Below, piece by piece: positions 38,125-63,070 of a stretch of DNA of 64,000 bases. The stretch is from NCBI GenBank assembly GCA_944362705.1, contig CALVTO010000003.1, forward strand, positions 1 through 64,000, read 5' to 3'. Below the pieces are notes generated by a model, which was given only the letters and a program-made list of their open reading frames with translations, was not told the DNA's origin and made no database searches. Made by a program: the position numbers and the translations under genes. The first letter of the stretch is position 1. The number at the start of each line of letters is the position of its first letter. Origin of the DNA: an uncultured Clostridia bacterium (GTDB taxonomy: Bacteria; Bacillota; Clostridia; Christensenellales; UBA1242).

Positions 38125-40539
38125 TTAGTTAATAATATTTACAATTCTGCCTGGTACGTAAATAAATTTTTTCATGTTTTCTAACAGTTCTGGAGATTGT
38201 TTGGCAAGCATTTCTTTCACCTCAGCTTCGGTTGCTGTTTTAGAAACATGAAGTTTGCATTTTATTTTACCTTTTACTTGTACTGGAATTTCTACCAAAC
38301 TTTGTTCAAGTACGCTAGCATCAAACGTTGGCCAAGTAGCATCTTTAAAGGTTGGCGTGTAGCCCATAATTTCATACATTTCTTCTGTAATATGTGGCGC
38401 AACAGGGTTTAAAAGAATTAAAAATTGCCTTAACTCTTCACGCGTAATAAACCCATCTTCCCTGATTTTTTTGATAAATATCATTAAAGAAGAAATAACC
38501 GTATTTAATTTTAAGTTTTCATAATCTTCGGTAACTTTTTTAATAAGTGTATGTAAACTAACGGCGTGTTCTTTAGATACTTCTTCACCTTTAACCATAT
38601 CTTGCAATGCCCAAACTTTATCTATAAAGGCGGTAATACCATTAATACCATCGTATGTCCATGGCGTGTTATCTTCATACCCACCCAAGAAGTGCACATG
38701 CAATCTTGCAACATCGGCGCCGTATTTTTCAATAACTTTTAATGGAGAAACACCATTGGCTGAACTTTTACTCATTTTCTTGCCTTGGTCATCTAAAATT
38801 AAACCGCTACCCATTTTCTTTTTGAACGGATCTCTGGTTGGAACGGCACCAATTTCATATAAGAAATTTTGCCAGAAGAACGCATATAACACGTGACGCG
38901 TAATGTGTTCTGTACCACCTGTATAGCAATCGACACTACCCCAATATTTTAGTTTTTCGTAATCGGCAAGTGCATTTTTGTTGTGTGGATCAACATACCG
39001 TAACCAATACCAACTAGAACCCGCCCAGTTTGGCATGGTGTCTGATTCACGTCTTGCTTTGCCACCGCATTTAGGGCAAGTGCAATTCATCCAAGAATCA
39101 ATTTTAGAAATAGGAGAATCACCATTTTTATTTGGTAAATAATCGTCTGTTTCTGGCAATACAAGTGGAAGGTCTTTTTCTTCCATAGGTACCCAACCGC
39201 ATTTTTCGCAATAGACAACTGGGAATGGTTCACCCCAATACCTTTGCCTATTAAACGACCAGTCTTGCATTTTATAGTTAATTTGTTTTTCGCCTACACC
39301 CATAGCAATGACTTTTTCTGCAATTTTTTGTTTTGCTTCTTTTACAGGCATTCCTGTAAATTCAGCAGAATTCATCATTTTACTATTTTTTGCTAAGTAT
39401 TCTTGTTTTTCTACGGCACATTTAGAAACATCGCCTTCAATAACTTGAATCATAGGAATAGAGAATTTTTGTGCAAACTCAAAATCTCTTTGGTCATGCG
39501 TTGGAACGGCCATAACCGCACCTGTTCCGTAAGTCGCTAAAACAAAATCGGCAGTATAAAGCGGAACTTTTTTATTGTTTACTGGGTTAATAGCATACAA
39601 ACCTTGAATTTCACAACCTGTTTTTGTTTTTTGATCAGATAATCTATCGAACTCCGATCTTAGTGCTGTGCTTTCTTGATATTTTTGAATACTTTCATAA
39701 TTTTTAATATATGGCTTCCATTCGGCTAGTTTTTCACTTTCTGGTGCTAGAACTAAGAACGTAATACCATACATGGTTTCTATGCAAGTGGTGAATATTT
39801 CAACATTACCCACTTTTTCGTCTTTTTCGTTTACAACATCAAACGTTACCTGCATACCTTCGCTTCTGCCAATCCAGTTGCGTTGTGCATCTTTTAACCT
39901 TTCTGCCATATCGATGCGGTCTACATTTTGTAAAAGTTTTTCGGAATATTCTTTCATTTTCAAGAACCAAACAGCCCTTTCTACTTGTATAACATCGGAA
40001 CCGCAACGGTCGCATTTGCCACCTTGGCTATCTTCATTAGAAAGAACCGTTTGACATTTTGGACAGAAATTCACATACCCTTTCTTTTTATACGCCTTGC
40101 CGTGTTTGAATAATTGTAAAAAGATCCATTGCGTCCATTTATAGTATTCTGGGTCGCTGGTACAAATGGTTCTATCCCAATCGAAAGACAAGCCCATTTG
40201 TTTAGATTGCTCTAATACTTTTTGCATGCCTTCTTTTACAAAGGTTTTAGGGTTGATACCTTTTTTTATAGCGGCATTTTCAGCAGGCAAGCCAAACGCA
40301 TCACCACCGATTGGAAACAATACGTTATAGCCTTGCAACCTTTTCATTCTTGCCAAAGCATCTGCCGGAATGGTTCCCTTCATGTGCCCCATATGAAGAT
40401 TGCCACTAATATTGTAAAATTCATACAAAACATAGTATTTTGGTTTTGTCGGGTGAAAATCAATAGCCTGAAAACGCTTTTCTTTTACCCACACGTCTTG
40501 CCATTTTTTTTCAATTTCTTTAAAATTATATTCTTTCAT
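38125..40539 (-). CDS. leuS: Leucyl-tRNA synthetase
   Basis: An 804-residue class I synthetase of normal bacterial length. The HIGH-type motif is GNLHMGHMKG (about 47-56) and the KMSKS motif is KKMSKSSANG. Cys-pair zinc sites occur (CPKCQ, CDRCG, CEKCGW, CPKCGG). The CP1 editing domain carries the usual Thr-rich and Asp sites (VPTHDQRDFEFA). AAGGAG precedes the ATG. A transcription attenuator with a leucine-rich leader peptide precedes the gene. Confidence 0.96.
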   Translation of the reverse strand: MKEYNFKEIEKKWQDVWVKEKRFQAIDFHPTKPKYYVLYEFYNISGNLHMGHMKGTIPADALARMKRLQGYNVLFPIGGDAFGLPAENAAIKKGINPKTFVKEGMQKVLEQSKQMGLSFDWDRTICTSDPEYYKWTQWIFLQLFKHGKAYKKKGYVNFCPKCQTVLSNEDSQGGKCDRCGSDVIQVERAVWFLKMKEYSEKLLQNVDRIDMAERLKDAQRNWIGRSEGMQVTFDVVNEKDEKVGNVEIFTTCIETMYGITFLVLAPESEKLAEWKPYIKNYESIQKYQESTALRSEFDRLSDQKTKTGCEIQGLYAINPVNNKKVPLYTADFVLATYGTGAVMAVPTHDQRDFEFAQKFSIPMIQVIEGDVSKCAVEKQEYLAKNSKMMNSAEFTGMPVKEAKQKIAEKVIAMGVGEKQINYKMQDWSFNRQRYWGEPFPVVYCEKCGWVPMEEKDLPLVLPETDDYLPNKNGDSPISKIDSWMNCTCPKCGGKARRESDTMPNWAGSSWYWLRYVDPHNKNALADYEKLKYWGSVDCYTGGTEHITRHVLYAFFWQNFLYEIGAVPTRDPFKKKMGSGLILDDQGKKMSKSSANGVSPLKVIEKYGADVARLHVHFLGGYEDNTPWTYDGINGITAFIDKVWALQDMVKGEEVSKEHAVSLHTLIKKVTEDYENLKLNTVISSLMIFIKKIREDGFITREELRQFLILLNPVAPHITEEMYEIMGYTPTFKDATWPTFDASVLEQSLVEIPVQVKGKIKCKLHVSKTATEAEVKEMLAKQSPELLENMKKFIYVPGRIVNIIN

Positions 40540-40553
40540 ACTTTTTCTCCTTA

Positions 40554-40596
40554 AAAAATAAAAGTTTAGCGTTCTTCTGTAACACTAAACTTTTTT
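40554..40596 (-). terminator. Attenuator terminator in the leuS leader
   Basis: A 14-bp stem on the minus strand, AAAAGTTTAGTGTT pairing with AACGCTAAACTTTT across a 7-nt loop, followed by ATTTTTT. It lies between the leader peptide and the leuS ribosome binding site, as in amino acid biosynthesis attenuators. Confidence 0.8.
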
Positions 40597-40624
40597 ACTT
40601 ACAAAAAGAACAAATACGTATTTG

Positions 40625-40663
40625 TTAAGCGTGTATGCATAATAGTAGTAGGTTTGCTCTCAT
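40625..40663 (-). CDS. Leucine leader peptide of leuS
   Basis: A 12-residue reading frame, MRANLLLLCIHA, with four consecutive Leu codons CTA CTA CTA TTA. GGAG lies 6 nt upstream of its ATG. It follows a consensus promoter and ends in a perfect palindrome (AACAAATAC / GTATTTGTT, 40626-40609) that overlaps the stop codon. Stalling at Leu codons when charged tRNA-Leu is low would leave the CACGCTTAAC segment free to pair with GTTTAGTG and so disrupt the terminator. Confidence 0.75.
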   Translation of the reverse strand: MRANLLLLCIHA

Positions 40664-40681
40664 ATGTTCTCCAATGGTTGC

Positions 40682-40710
40682 ATTATACCGCGTTGCGCCA
40701 TTCTTGTCAA
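40682..40710 (-). promoter_or_regulatory. Promoter of the leuS leader
   Basis: TTGACA (40710-40705), 17 bp, TATAAT (40687-40682) on the minus strand: perfect consensus. Transcription should start near 40675, giving a leader of about 136 nt. Confidence 0.8.
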
Positions 40711-40714
40711 CGAC

Positions 40715-41572
40715 TTAATTTTCTTTTTTTACATAAACAATACCAATGGTACCTGGCCCACAATGCGTGCCGATAACTGGACCAACAGGTTGTTGCCATA
40801 TTTCTGCTTCTGGCAATTTTTCTGTTAGCATTTGGTTAACTTGGCTTGCATGCTCTTCATCATCGGCATTTAAAATAACCACAGGGTACGAAATATCAGC
40901 TTTATGTATCACTTCTTGCACCATAGTTGCAAACGCTTTTTTAGCGCCAAGTTCTTTGCTTTTTACTACAAGTTTACCTTCTGCGTTTACCATAATAATA
41001 GGTTTAATACTCAACAACGTACCCACAAAAGCAGCTGCACTTGTTAAGCGACCACCGCGTTTTAAATGGTTTAAATCGCTTGCCATAAAAATAGTGGAAA
41101 CTTTATCTCTAAACGATTCTAAAAACGCTACCGTTTCAGGTATGGTGTGTCCTTCACGCAAATATTTTGCGCCTTCATATACTTGGAGCCCCGCACCCAT
41201 AGAAATACTTTTGGTATCGAACCAAGTAAATGTTGCTTGGGGATATTTTTCTTTTAAGGTTTGTATAGCCGATTGCATAAAGGAAAATGTTGCACTTAGT
41301 TGGCTTGAAAAAGAAATGTATAAAATATCTTCCCCTTTTTGAAAGTATGGTTCAAAATATTCTATATAATTTGCTTCGTTTAGCGCCGATGTTTTTGGCA
41401 TGTTTTTTTCACGCACAGCCTGGTAAAATGCTTTAAAATTTGTATTTTTGCCTAAATCGTAATAATATTCTTCTCCTTTTAAGGTGTAAGGCATGGAAAT
41501 GACTTTTAAGCCAAGTTCTTCGGCTTTATCAAACCACAACTCACAATTGCTATCACAAAATATAACAGACAT
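40715..41572 (-). CDS. DegV family fatty acid-binding protein
   Basis: A 285-residue DegV-type protein. The family binds fatty acids and in FakA/FakB systems presents them for phosphorylation. The N-terminal CDSNCEL strand, TSALNEANYIEYFEPY, SSQLSATF and the C-terminal GPVIGTHCGPGTIG motif are characteristic. It starts 12 nt after the epimerase-like gene, with AGGAG, and is probably co-transcribed with it. No FakA is in the window. Confidence 0.87.
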   Translation of the reverse strand: MSVIFCDSNCELWFDKAEELGLKVISMPYTLKGEEYYYDLGKNTNFKAFYQAVREKNMPKTSALNEANYIEYFEPYFQKGEDILYISFSSQLSATFSFMQSAIQTLKEKYPQATFTWFDTKSISMGAGLQVYEGAKYLREGHTIPETVAFLESFRDKVSTIFMASDLNHLKRGGRLTSAAAFVGTLLSIKPIIMVNAEGKLVVKSKELGAKKAFATMVQEVIHKADISYPVVILNADDEEHASQVNQMLTEKLPEAEIWQQPVGPVIGTHCGPGTIGIVYVKKEN

Positions 41573-59634: not shown

Positions 59635-59661
59635 AAAAACAAGGCTTATTGCCTTGTTTTT
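59635..59661 (-). terminator. Terminator of ileS
   Basis: AAAAACAAGGC / GCCTTGTTTTT around a TTATT loop at the end of ileS. Confidence 0.8.
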
Positions 59662-62600
59662 ATTGTTTATCCATTTGAATGGCTACTTCTTTGCCTTCAA
59701 ACGCAACGCTTGTTACAAATGTACCTTGGGTTCCTTTTGTAAGTGTGTCGGCAAGTGTAGATTTTTGAATTATATCTGCATACTTCATAGCCACAGATAC
59801 TAAATGTTCATCACCTTGCACGGTTAGCAAAATATGATTCGTAACTTCTAATCCGCTTTCTTTACGCAAGTTTTGTACCTTACTAACAAACTCATTCACA
59901 AACCCTTTTTCTAATAGGTCTTGGGTTAAGGTGGTATCGAGCACTACCGTAGTTGTTCCGTTGGTGCTAGACGCATAGCCTTCTTTATTTTCCAACTGAA
60001 TGAGAATATCGTCTTTACCAAGTGTTACATTTTGACCTTGCACGGTAAATGTAAAGGTTTCGCCATTACGAACTTTTGCTACAATTTCGCCGGCATTTGC
60101 GTTTGCTAAATATGTGCGAATATCGTTGATAAGTTTGCCATATTTTGGCCCTAGTGTTTTTAATTGCGGTTTTAAGCTATAGCTTACATACGCATCGGCA
60201 TTATGTAAAATTTCTAATGCTTCTACATTTAATTCTTCTAAAACAAGTTGTTGTAGTTCTTGATCTAAATGTAGTTTTTCTGCCGTGCACACAATAAGTT
60301 TAGAAAGGGGTTGCCTATTTTTTACATTGCATGCGCTACGACAAACACGGCCTAAATCGACAATCTCTAAAACCTTATCCATACCTTGGTTAAGTTCGGT
60401 TTGAATGAAAGAAGCATCGCTTTCTGGATACGAGCAGAAATGTACACTTTCCGGCGCGTTTTTATCTAAACTACGCACCAAATTTTGATACATAGTTTCA
60501 GAAATAAATGGCACAAATGGCGCAATAAGTTTGGTTAAACCAACAAGCACTTCGTATAGCGTTTTGTAAGCGCTAATTTTGTCATCGGTTTCTTCACTAC
60601 CCCAGAAGCGTTCACGAGAGCGACGTACATACCAGTTAGAAAGTTTATCAACAAACGCACTGATGGCTTTTGTAGGTGTTGGCAAGTCGTACTTTTCTAA
60701 ACTTTCGTTGACAAGTTGTACAAGCGCGTTATAATCGGATAATAGCCATTTATCTAAAAAAGATAGTTTGCATTGCTTGATATCGTATTTGGTTGGATTC
60801 ATTTTATCAATTTCTGCATACAAAACATAGAAATAATACACATTCCACAACGTTCCCATAAACTTACGTTGCATATCTACAAGCGTTTCTTCAATAAATG
60901 GTAAACCTTGTGCTGGGCTACATGCCGACATAAAATACCATCTTACACCATCGGCGCCGTATTTTTGTAAAACTTCCCACGGGTCTACGCCATTTTTTAA
61001 GCTTTTACTCATTTTTAGTCCGTGTTTATCAAGCACTAAGCCAAGCACGTTGCACGCTTTAAATGGTGCTTTACCAAACACTGCGGTATTAACCGACAAT
61101 AAGCTATTAAACCAACCGCGCGTTTGGTCGATACCTTCACTGATATAATCGGCACAAAATGCTTTTTCAAAAATATCTTTATTTTCAAACGGGTAATGGT
61201 ATTGCGCAAACGGCATCGAACCGCTATCGAACCAGCAGTCCATAACTTCTGGTGTACGGTGCATGGTTTTACCGCACACAGGACAAGCAAAGGTAATTTT
61301 ATCAAGCGTTGGCTTGTGTAAATCAATTTCGCCTTTTACGCCAGATAGTTTACGCAATTCTTCTACACTACCAATTACGTGAACATGCCCGCATTCGCAT
61401 ACCCAGAAAGGAAGCGGTGTGCCCCAAAAACGGTTACGTGAAATGTTCCAATCGATATTATTGGCTAAAAAGTTGCCCATACGCCCATTTTTAATGTAAT
61501 CGGGTATCCAAAAAATGCCTTGGTTGTTTTTTACAAGTTCATCACGAATGGCTGTGGTTTTGACAAACCAAGCGTCTTGCGCGTAATACAAAAGCGGGCT
61601 TTTGCAACGCCAACAATGTGGATAAGAGTGCTCAAACGGAACAACCTTAAACATTTTGCCTTCTTGGGTAAGTTTTTCAATAATTGGTTTATCTGCTTTT
61701 TTAACAAAACTACCTGCAAACTCTGTTTCTTCGGTCATATTGCCGTATTTATCTACAAGTTGAATAAAATCTAAACCATATTTTTTACCCACATTGGCGT
61801 CATCTTCACCAAAGGCTGGGGCGATGTGTACAATGCCTGTACCATCTTCGGTGGTAACGTAATCATCTACGGTAACAAAATATCCTGTTTTTACTTTATC
61901 TTTCACATAACCAAACAATGGTTCGTACGTATGGTATTCATACGCCTTGCCTGGTTTGCTTTCTAAAATGGTATACGTTCCTTCTTCAAAAAGAGTAGGC
62001 ACTAGTTTTTCAAGCATAATGTAATGGATGCCTTCAAACGATAGTTTACAATACGTTTCCGCTGGATTCATACATAGTGCAATGTTGGAAGGAAGCGTCC
62101 ACGGGGTTGTTGTCCAGACTAAAAAGTAGGTGTTTTCTTCTTGTGTGCTTTTAAATTTCACAACTACGGAATTTTCTTTTAAAACTTTATAGTTATCGCC
62201 GTTTTCTAGTTCTGCTTTTGATAAAGATGTTCCGCAACGCGGGCAATATGGCACTACCTTATGTCCTTGGTAAATAAGCCCCTTTTTATGCATTTCTTTA
62301 AGCGCCCAGAAAATACTTTCAATGTAGGAATTGTCGTATGTAATGTATGGGTGTTCCATATCAACCCAATACCCAATTTTTCGGGTTAGGTCTTCCCACA
62401 TGGATTTATATTCCCATACAGAACTTTTACATAGTTCAATAAATTTATCTACACCATAATTTTCAATATCTTTTTTACCGTTAAAGCCTAGGCGTTTTTC
62501 CACCTCTACTTCTACAGGCAAGCCGTGCGTATCCCACCCTGCTTTGCGAAAAATGTAGTACCCTTTCATGGCCTTAAACCTAGGAATAACATCTTTCATG

Positions 62601-62791
62601 GCGCGAGTTAACACGTGCCCAATATGAGGTTTACCATTCGCCGTTGGCGGACCATCGTGCAAGACGAAACTTTTGCCTGTTTCTTTGTTTTGTTCTAATG
62701 CTTTTTTAACAATATGGTTTTCGTCCCAAAATTTAAGAACATTTTCTTCATTTTTTAAGAAATCTAATTTACCATCTACTTTGTTATACAT
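59660..62791 (-). CDS. ileS: Isoleucyl-tRNA synthetase, IleRS2 type
   Basis: A 1043-residue class I synthetase. The HIGH motif is PHIGHV in LHDGPPTANGKPHIGHVL, and KMSKS is LKMSKSLKNG. Zinc-type Cys groups occur (CPRCGTS, CWRCKS, CECGH, CPVCGK). The length and sequence style fit the long, eukaryote-like IleRS2 class, which is often naturally mupirocin-tolerant, rather than the about 920-residue IleRS1. AAAGGAG precedes the ATG. Expression is controlled by an Ile T-box in the leader. Confidence 0.95.
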   Translation of the reverse strand: MYNKVDGKLDFLKNEENVLKFWDENHIVKKALEQNKETGKSFVLHDGPPTANGKPHIGHVLTRAMKDVIPRFKAMKGYYIFRKAGWDTHGLPVEVEVEKRLGFNGKKDIENYGVDKFIELCKSSVWEYKSMWEDLTRKIGYWVDMEHPYITYDNSYIESIFWALKEMHKKGLIYQGHKVVPYCPRCGTSLSKAELENGDNYKVLKENSVVVKFKSTQEENTYFLVWTTTPWTLPSNIALCMNPAETYCKLSFEGIHYIMLEKLVPTLFEEGTYTILESKPGKAYEYHTYEPLFGYVKDKVKTGYFVTVDDYVTTEDGTGIVHIAPAFGEDDANVGKKYGLDFIQLVDKYGNMTEETEFAGSFVKKADKPIIEKLTQEGKMFKVVPFEHSYPHCWRCKSPLLYYAQDAWFVKTTAIRDELVKNNQGIFWIPDYIKNGRMGNFLANNIDWNISRNRFWGTPLPFWVCECGHVHVIGSVEELRKLSGVKGEIDLHKPTLDKITFACPVCGKTMHRTPEVMDCWFDSGSMPFAQYHYPFENKDIFEKAFCADYISEGIDQTRGWFNSLLSVNTAVFGKAPFKACNVLGLVLDKHGLKMSKSLKNGVDPWEVLQKYGADGVRWYFMSACSPAQGLPFIEETLVDMQRKFMGTLWNVYYFYVLYAEIDKMNPTKYDIKQCKLSFLDKWLLSDYNALVQLVNESLEKYDLPTPTKAISAFVDKLSNWYVRRSRERFWGSEETDDKISAYKTLYEVLVGLTKLIAPFVPFISETMYQNLVRSLDKNAPESVHFCSYPESDASFIQTELNQGMDKVLEIVDLGRVCRSACNVKNRQPLSKLIVCTAEKLHLDQELQQLVLEELNVEALEILHNADAYVSYSLKPQLKTLGPKYGKLINDIRTYLANANAGEIVAKVRNGETFTFTVQGQNVTLGKDDILIQLENKEGYASSTNGTTTVVLDTTLTQDLLEKGFVNEFVSKVQNLRKESGLEVTNHILLTVQGDEHLVSVAMKYADIIQKSTLADTLTKGTQGTFVTSVAFEGKEVAIQMDKQ

Positions 62792-62830: not shown

Positions 62831-63070
62831 TAAAAAAACCTAGTGCAAGCCACAAGAACCGCACTAGGCAAATTACCACTTGTAAACTTATGTTATGGGC
62901 CAGCACCCATACCTTCTATTACGGGAAGACCCGATACCCCTTACTGCTATTTCTGGGGTACAACTCCGAAAGTGATACCTTTATATGTTTGCTACCGTTT
63001 TACACCAGCCAACGGCTCTCTGCGCGCTAGAATATAAAGTGTTGTCTTTCATCTGCGTTTTTCTATTTGT
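62831..63070 (-). promoter_or_regulatory. T-box riboswitch, isoleucine specific
   Basis: On the minus strand the leader has the stem I start AGAGAGCCG...GGCTGGTG, a specifier codon ATC (62976-62974, Ile) in GGTATCACTTTCGG, the T-box-like segment AGTGGTAATTTGC (62880-62868) whose TGGT can pair with the tRNA ACCA end, and a terminator CCTAGTGC / GCACTAGG followed by T7 (62868-62832). Uncharged tRNA-Ile should favour readthrough into ileS. The T-box bulge diverges from the consensus TGGNACCGCG. Confidence 0.85.

Follow-up and report, generated by a model that had tools for sequence, protein, structure and literature searches.

Our analysis suggests that leuS, the leucyl-tRNA synthetase gene in a 64,000-nucleotide stretch of contig CALVTO010000003.1 (the window), is regulated by transcription attenuation in which ribosomes on a leader ORF sense charged tRNA-Leu. 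From the sequence we put the probability of this reading at about 0.83. Our confidence in ribosome-mediated attenuation as the class of mechanism is high, and a ribosome stalling for lack of leucine probably switches leuS on. An earlier note on this DNA had proposed a leucine leader-peptide attenuator rather than a T-box, and that proposal is well supported: the leader anatomy is complete and its order is right, an SD-led leader with four consecutive Leu codons is unique in the genome, leuS is without a T-box while glyS, pheS, ileS and thrS have one, and the enrichment of CTA matches the Salmonella leu leader. It is supported as well because analogous cognate-codon leaders precede leuS, ileS and hisS in the window's family, and because a third Leu-leader design is found upstream of leuS in Bacilli-like MAGs. 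We regard the window leader as a very probable additional case of a known kind of attenuator, in a group that normally relies on T-boxes; the wider family pattern is the more surprising result.

The leuS leader and the T-boxes of the genome

The leuS product is a bacterial LeuRS, based on its match to TIGR00396, and the gene has its own Shine-Dalgarno (SD) sequence and an ATG at 40539. The following features were located in the window.

38125..40539, minus strand: leuS, leucyl-tRNA synthetase, the gene proposed to be regulated (TIGR00396, 834 bits)
40682..40710, minus strand: sigma-70 promoter TTGACA-17-TATAAT (12/12 consensus positions)
40669..40672, minus strand: Shine-Dalgarno GGAG of the leader ORF (from sequence)
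40625..40663, minus strand: leader peptide ORF MRANLLLLCIHA, 12 codons (ATG 40663, TAA 40625)
40640..40651, minus strand: putative regulatory codons CTA CTA CTA TTA, Leu 5-8 (from sequence and codon usage)
40609..40626, minus strand: perfect 18-nt palindrome AACAAATACGTATTTGTT, sharing bases with the leader stop codon (from sequence)
40553..40594, minus strand: intrinsic terminator with a 14-bp stem, 7-nt loop and U run (from sequence and folding)
62850-63064, minus strand: T-box of ileS (RF00230)

The order is promoter, SD, leader ORF, palindrome, terminator and leuS, which places the terminator between the leader ORF and the gene. The consensus promoter, the 12-residue leader with its four Leu codons, the palindrome overlapping the stop (40626-40609) and the 14-bp terminator with a T run had been described in the earlier note, and all were confirmed. 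The encoded peptide is M R A N L L L L C I H A. Judged from the position of the -10 element, transcription is expected to start near 40675, giving a leader 5' UTR of about a dozen bases. The terminator hairpin (40594-40560) has 14 pairs and a loop of 7, is followed by ATTTTTT, has a folding energy of -13.2 kcal/mol and lies about 20 nt 5' of the leuS start. The whole leader folds better than its shuffles (z -2.3). Two features of a leader-peptide attenuator are found here: a cognate codon run in a short SD-led ORF, MRANLLLLCIHA before leuS, and an intrinsic terminator 3' of the promoter, between the ORF and the gene. The gene 5' of the leader (40715-41572, minus strand) is one which we take to be DegV-like.

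We looked for comparable ORFs throughout the genome, which comprises 970 kb in 3 contigs. Upstream regions, 373 in all, contain 481 short ATG ORFs, 29 of them with an SD, and four consecutive Leu codons occur in just one of the 481, the SD-led ORF before leuS. Genome-wide, such a run is found in 0.55% of 14,475 short ATG ORFs. When the whole genome was scanned for a run-containing short ORF followed by a terminator, no second convincing leader attenuator was found. The CTA codons had been called rare-type. We found that CTA makes up 10% of Leu codons in the genome and is fourth of the six; CTG and CTC are rarer, thus CTA is uncommon but not the rarest Leu codon. The probability of at least three CTA among four Leu codons is 0.004.

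In Firmicutes, leuS, ileS and valS are usually under T-box control. Four T-box matches were obtained in the genome, at glyS, pheS, ileS and thrS. The T-box assigned to ileS in the earlier note was recovered with RF00230 at 75.8 bits (E 1.3e-14), below the curated cut-off of 93 bits. Since 280 of the 309 family genomes contain a T-box, leuS might be controlled by a degenerate or unrecognised one, or by another tRNA- or protein-binding leader. We consider this highly improbable: no RF00230 match was found upstream of leuS at E up to 10, the roughly 140 nt from promoter to gene are short for a T-box, and a simple pattern for a T-box-like motif occurs in just 2 of 226 leuS upstream sequences (some of them duplicated between collections). 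As a separate observation, genus g42 (G261-G269 and G057) gave no T-box match in any of the 10 genomes searched, unlike most other genera of the family.

Candidate stems and proposed switching

Folding of the leader yielded three elements that may take part in attenuation.

40653..40660, minus strand: element 1, AGAGCAAA, leader codons 2-4; can pair with UUUGUUCU (folding)
40599..40614, minus strand: element 2, UUUGUUCUUUUUGUAA; candidate partner of element 1 or of the terminator apex (folding)
40571..40582, minus strand: element 3, the terminator apex UUACAGAAGAAC; would pair with element 2 to form the proposed antiterminator (folding)

Element 1 and UUUGUUCU form an 8-bp helix (-8.8 kcal/mol) that is present in the MFE fold of the leader, and UUUGUUCU overlaps the post-stop segment that pairs with the terminator apex. 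In nascent-transcript folding, GUUCUUUUUGUAA (40611-40599) forms 12 pairs with the apex (40582-40571). This duplex of spacer and apex has an energy of -10.8 kcal/mol and a shuffle p of 0.0085, for a pairing chosen after the fact. The chain of alternative helices, 1:2, 2:3 and 3:4, is thus a candidate drawn from single-sequence folding of one leader, and we give this particular set of stems somewhat less than an even chance of being correct.

We propose that when leucyl-tRNA is plentiful the ribosome would reach the leader stop codon, leaving codons 2-4 free to pair with the post-stop segment, and the terminator would form. When leucyl-tRNA is scarce the ribosome would halt on codons 5-8 and cover codons 2-4. 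The post-stop segment would then pair with the terminator apex as the apex emerges, and RNA polymerase would read through into leuS. The terminator wins at equilibrium in every ribosome state that we modelled, so under this model switching must be kinetic.

A different pairing within the same kind of attenuator had been put forward in the earlier note, between CACGCTTAAC and GTTTAGTG; the two sides of this pair lie at 40632-40624 and 40590-40582. With the ribosome stalled upstream, codons 11-12 and the stop (ACGCTTAAC) would base-pair with the terminator's 5' arm (GTTTAGTGT), whereas a ribosome at the stop would mask them and let the terminator form. The pairing does exist, with 8 of 9 positions paired, and the arm is free during a stall on codons 5-7 and masked at the stop. 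However, its duplex is weak (-7.1 kcal/mol, a value that 9% of shuffles equal), it has a competitor in the palindrome, which involves the same bases, and its pairing probability falls near zero once the terminator loop has been transcribed. We therefore regard these stems as unlikely to be the ones used. In our modelling the chain of elements 1 to 3 appears stronger and fits better.

Cognate-codon leaders in the family and beyond

The broader reading that we favour, and hold to be likely, is that leuS, ileS and once hisS in this family are under leader-peptide attenuators, mostly with leaderless ORFs, beside T-boxes; that at least three unrelated designs exist (window, family and Bacilli-like); and that the family type precedes leuS genes of at least four clades, as if the element stays while the gene is replaced.

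We identified cognate-codon leaders before 26 leuS genes (LALLL), 27 ileS genes (IIII) and one hisS gene (HHH) of the family. A covariance model built from four leuS leaders, R1, matched 30 of the 309 family genomes (E up to 0.01): 26 matches lie before leuS, one before hisS and two before ileS, and one is spurious (L311). The leuS leader peptides include MKINSLALLLR, MIKKELALLL and MKNKYLALLL. The hisS leader encodes MKTLNILHHHK (L305 in G220; the gene matches TIGR00442) and the two ileS leaders matched by R1 encode MLNTIIITNIIISI. Weaker second R1 matches in the same genomes are Ile-rich leaders, with ileS downstream in 5 of 6; at the remaining one, in G232, the first ORF downstream encodes another IleRS-like protein. 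When R1 was searched across the order, matches outside the family were spurious only (the sequences of L362 and L363 were inspected). A second model, R3, built from eight ileS leaders, matched 40 of the 309 family genomes, the strong matches nearly all falling in one genus, with peptides before ileS such as MKINAIIISNIIISSNN and MFKAIIIRNIIINI. Ile-rich, leaderless-looking leaders were seen at ileS loci L365-L389 and others (mainly one genus), and at L309, L310 and L312-L317.

The family-type leaders share a layout in which a hairpin, 1a:1b, follows the leader stop and element 2 is a possible partner for 1b (GGCACA with TTGTGC). Elements 2 and 3 form an antiterminator (GGTTGTGCT with AGCACAACC; -13 to -18 kcal/mol in most cases), and the terminator is formed by 3:4. 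In an alignment of 23 sequences (A3), scored in the register common to most members, 7 of 7 terminator pairs changed on both sides somewhere, which 0 of 500 shuffles reached; this covariation is strong but is not a probability, because sequences that are related may score above shuffles. For the antiterminator, 93% of cells are paired, with two double changes, and the figure for hairpin 1a:1b is also 93%. The ileS leaders likewise carry a terminator and an antiterminator, and use GCGTTTTGCTG with CAGCAAACGC. The hisS leader keeps the attenuator layout of the leuS and ileS leaders, with different letters in its stems.

We found exactly 6 nt between the -10 element and the ATG in 47 of the 54 family leaders, which places the ATG at the expected transcription start, and an SD-like motif in 0 of 54. 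We infer from this spacing that the family leader ORFs undergo leaderless translation. A scan for leaderless promoters on a 273-kb contig of G224 returned the leuS leader, the ileS leader and one unrelated ORF. If leaderless starts are real, attenuation would extend to ribosomes that initiate directly at an AUG at the very 5' end, and coupling to RNA polymerase would have to begin at once.

In the leuS tree, the genes preceded by the family-type leader fall into at least four clades (G022, G224, G223 and the main group), and by inspection G223 and G224 also have upstream flanking sequence in common. The simplest reading, not proven, is that leuS was replaced under a retained leader. The loci concerned include L285 (G223), L282 (G224), L290 (G022) and L284 (G048), where one and the same leader stands before leuS genes that belong to different clades.

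Eleven leuS loci of Bacilli-like MAGs (L047, L053, L057, L058, L060, L065, L067, L071, L076, L077 and L109) have another, strongly conserved leader in common, such as MKNIIVNNNLLLALLLNRLCSNGSILSAI, with a long terminator. In this third design the terminator's 5' arm is paired by the 3' portion of the ORF (-16 to -20 kcal/mol). The C-terminal part of the peptide, NRLCSNGSILSA, is conserved at the DNA level, partly as antiterminator. The leader corresponds to no Rfam family, and a model of it, R2, gave 0 matches in a phylum sample, an uninformative result.

Conservation of the peptide and stems in relatives had been named as a check on the window leader. The leader is absent before the nearest leuS genes (70-78% identical; the relatives compared are all of other genera), and in the leuS tree, where several family-type loci are unlabelled and shown as 'n', the window sits among leader-less relatives. 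With no such leader in these closest relatives, its stems are without comparative support, and the proposed covariance test was limited to the family's other leaders, where the covarying terminator was found. Neither R1 nor R3 found a match in the genome of the window, and homology of its leader to the family type was set aside on that ground. The window leader also differs from the leaderless type in having an SD and an ATG 18 nt after the -10 element. At the gathering threshold, no Rfam family was found in the window leader or in the relatives' leaders.

This lack of conservation, together with the terminator being the stable fold at equilibrium, is what one would expect if the short ORF were a coincidence or a spacer and the hairpin a constitutive partial terminator, fixing the level of leuS or ending transcription of the DegV-like gene. 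We judge this quite improbable, since the DegV-like gene and the terminator are separated by a 12/12 promoter, there is no room for another promoter downstream, the SD-led run of Leu codons before leuS has no equal in the genome, and leaders with cognate codons recur in the family, upstream of leuS, ileS and hisS.

Relation to known systems

The leu leader of S. typhimurium and E. coli, like the window leader, has a terminator, and its alternative stems have candidate counterparts in the window. Its leader ORF likewise contains a CUA-rich stretch of adjacent Leu codons, and in Salmonella three CUA codons set the sensitivity of the leader (PMC1183508). In contrast to the window, it serves a biosynthetic operon, encodes a longer peptide and uses other stems. 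Attenuators have been predicted for leuS itself in Streptomyces avermitilis and S. coelicolor (PMC1262725). These resemble the window in having a Leu leader ORF, a terminator and an antiterminator, in the window a candidate one, before leuS, but belong to Actinobacteria, and in 2005 no Firmicutes synthetase gene was known with classical attenuation (PMC1262725).

The earlier note had set the window against Firmicutes practice. T-boxes are indeed usual there, but leader peptides are not new to the group. Bacillus hisZ and its paralog hisS* have predicted His leader peptides (PMC2965389); as in the window, a leader peptide takes the place of a T-box in Firmicutes and does so in part upstream of a synthetase gene, but the amino acid is histidine and the hosts are Bacilli. 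A text search of PMC2965389 found no mention of leuS. A Leu-rich attenuator peptide is reported for S. aureus ilv-leu, again in Firmicutes, where it controls branched-chain biosynthesis and not a synthetase (PMC5794164). In the open-access literature, outside which most subscription papers fall, we found no report of a Firmicutes leuS or ileS gene with a leader-peptide attenuator, and none of leader ORFs that are themselves leaderless.

T-box leaders (RF00230) respond to the same input, tRNA charging, but in them the tRNA binds the RNA directly and there is no leader ORF. The lineage, with genomes near 1 Mb and many from animal gut samples, would sense tRNA charging by stalled ribosomes for some synthetases and not for others, and the two sensing systems inside one genome offer a natural comparison. 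Leader peptides appear to have emerged repeatedly.

A further observation concerns the window ileS (59660-62791, minus strand). Its product scores 940 and 926 bits against the MupA and MupB models, whose cut-offs of 1900 bits lie far above these values. Because these scores are nearly equal to its ileS score, they suggest that the IleRS is of a type related to mupirocin-resistant enzymes.
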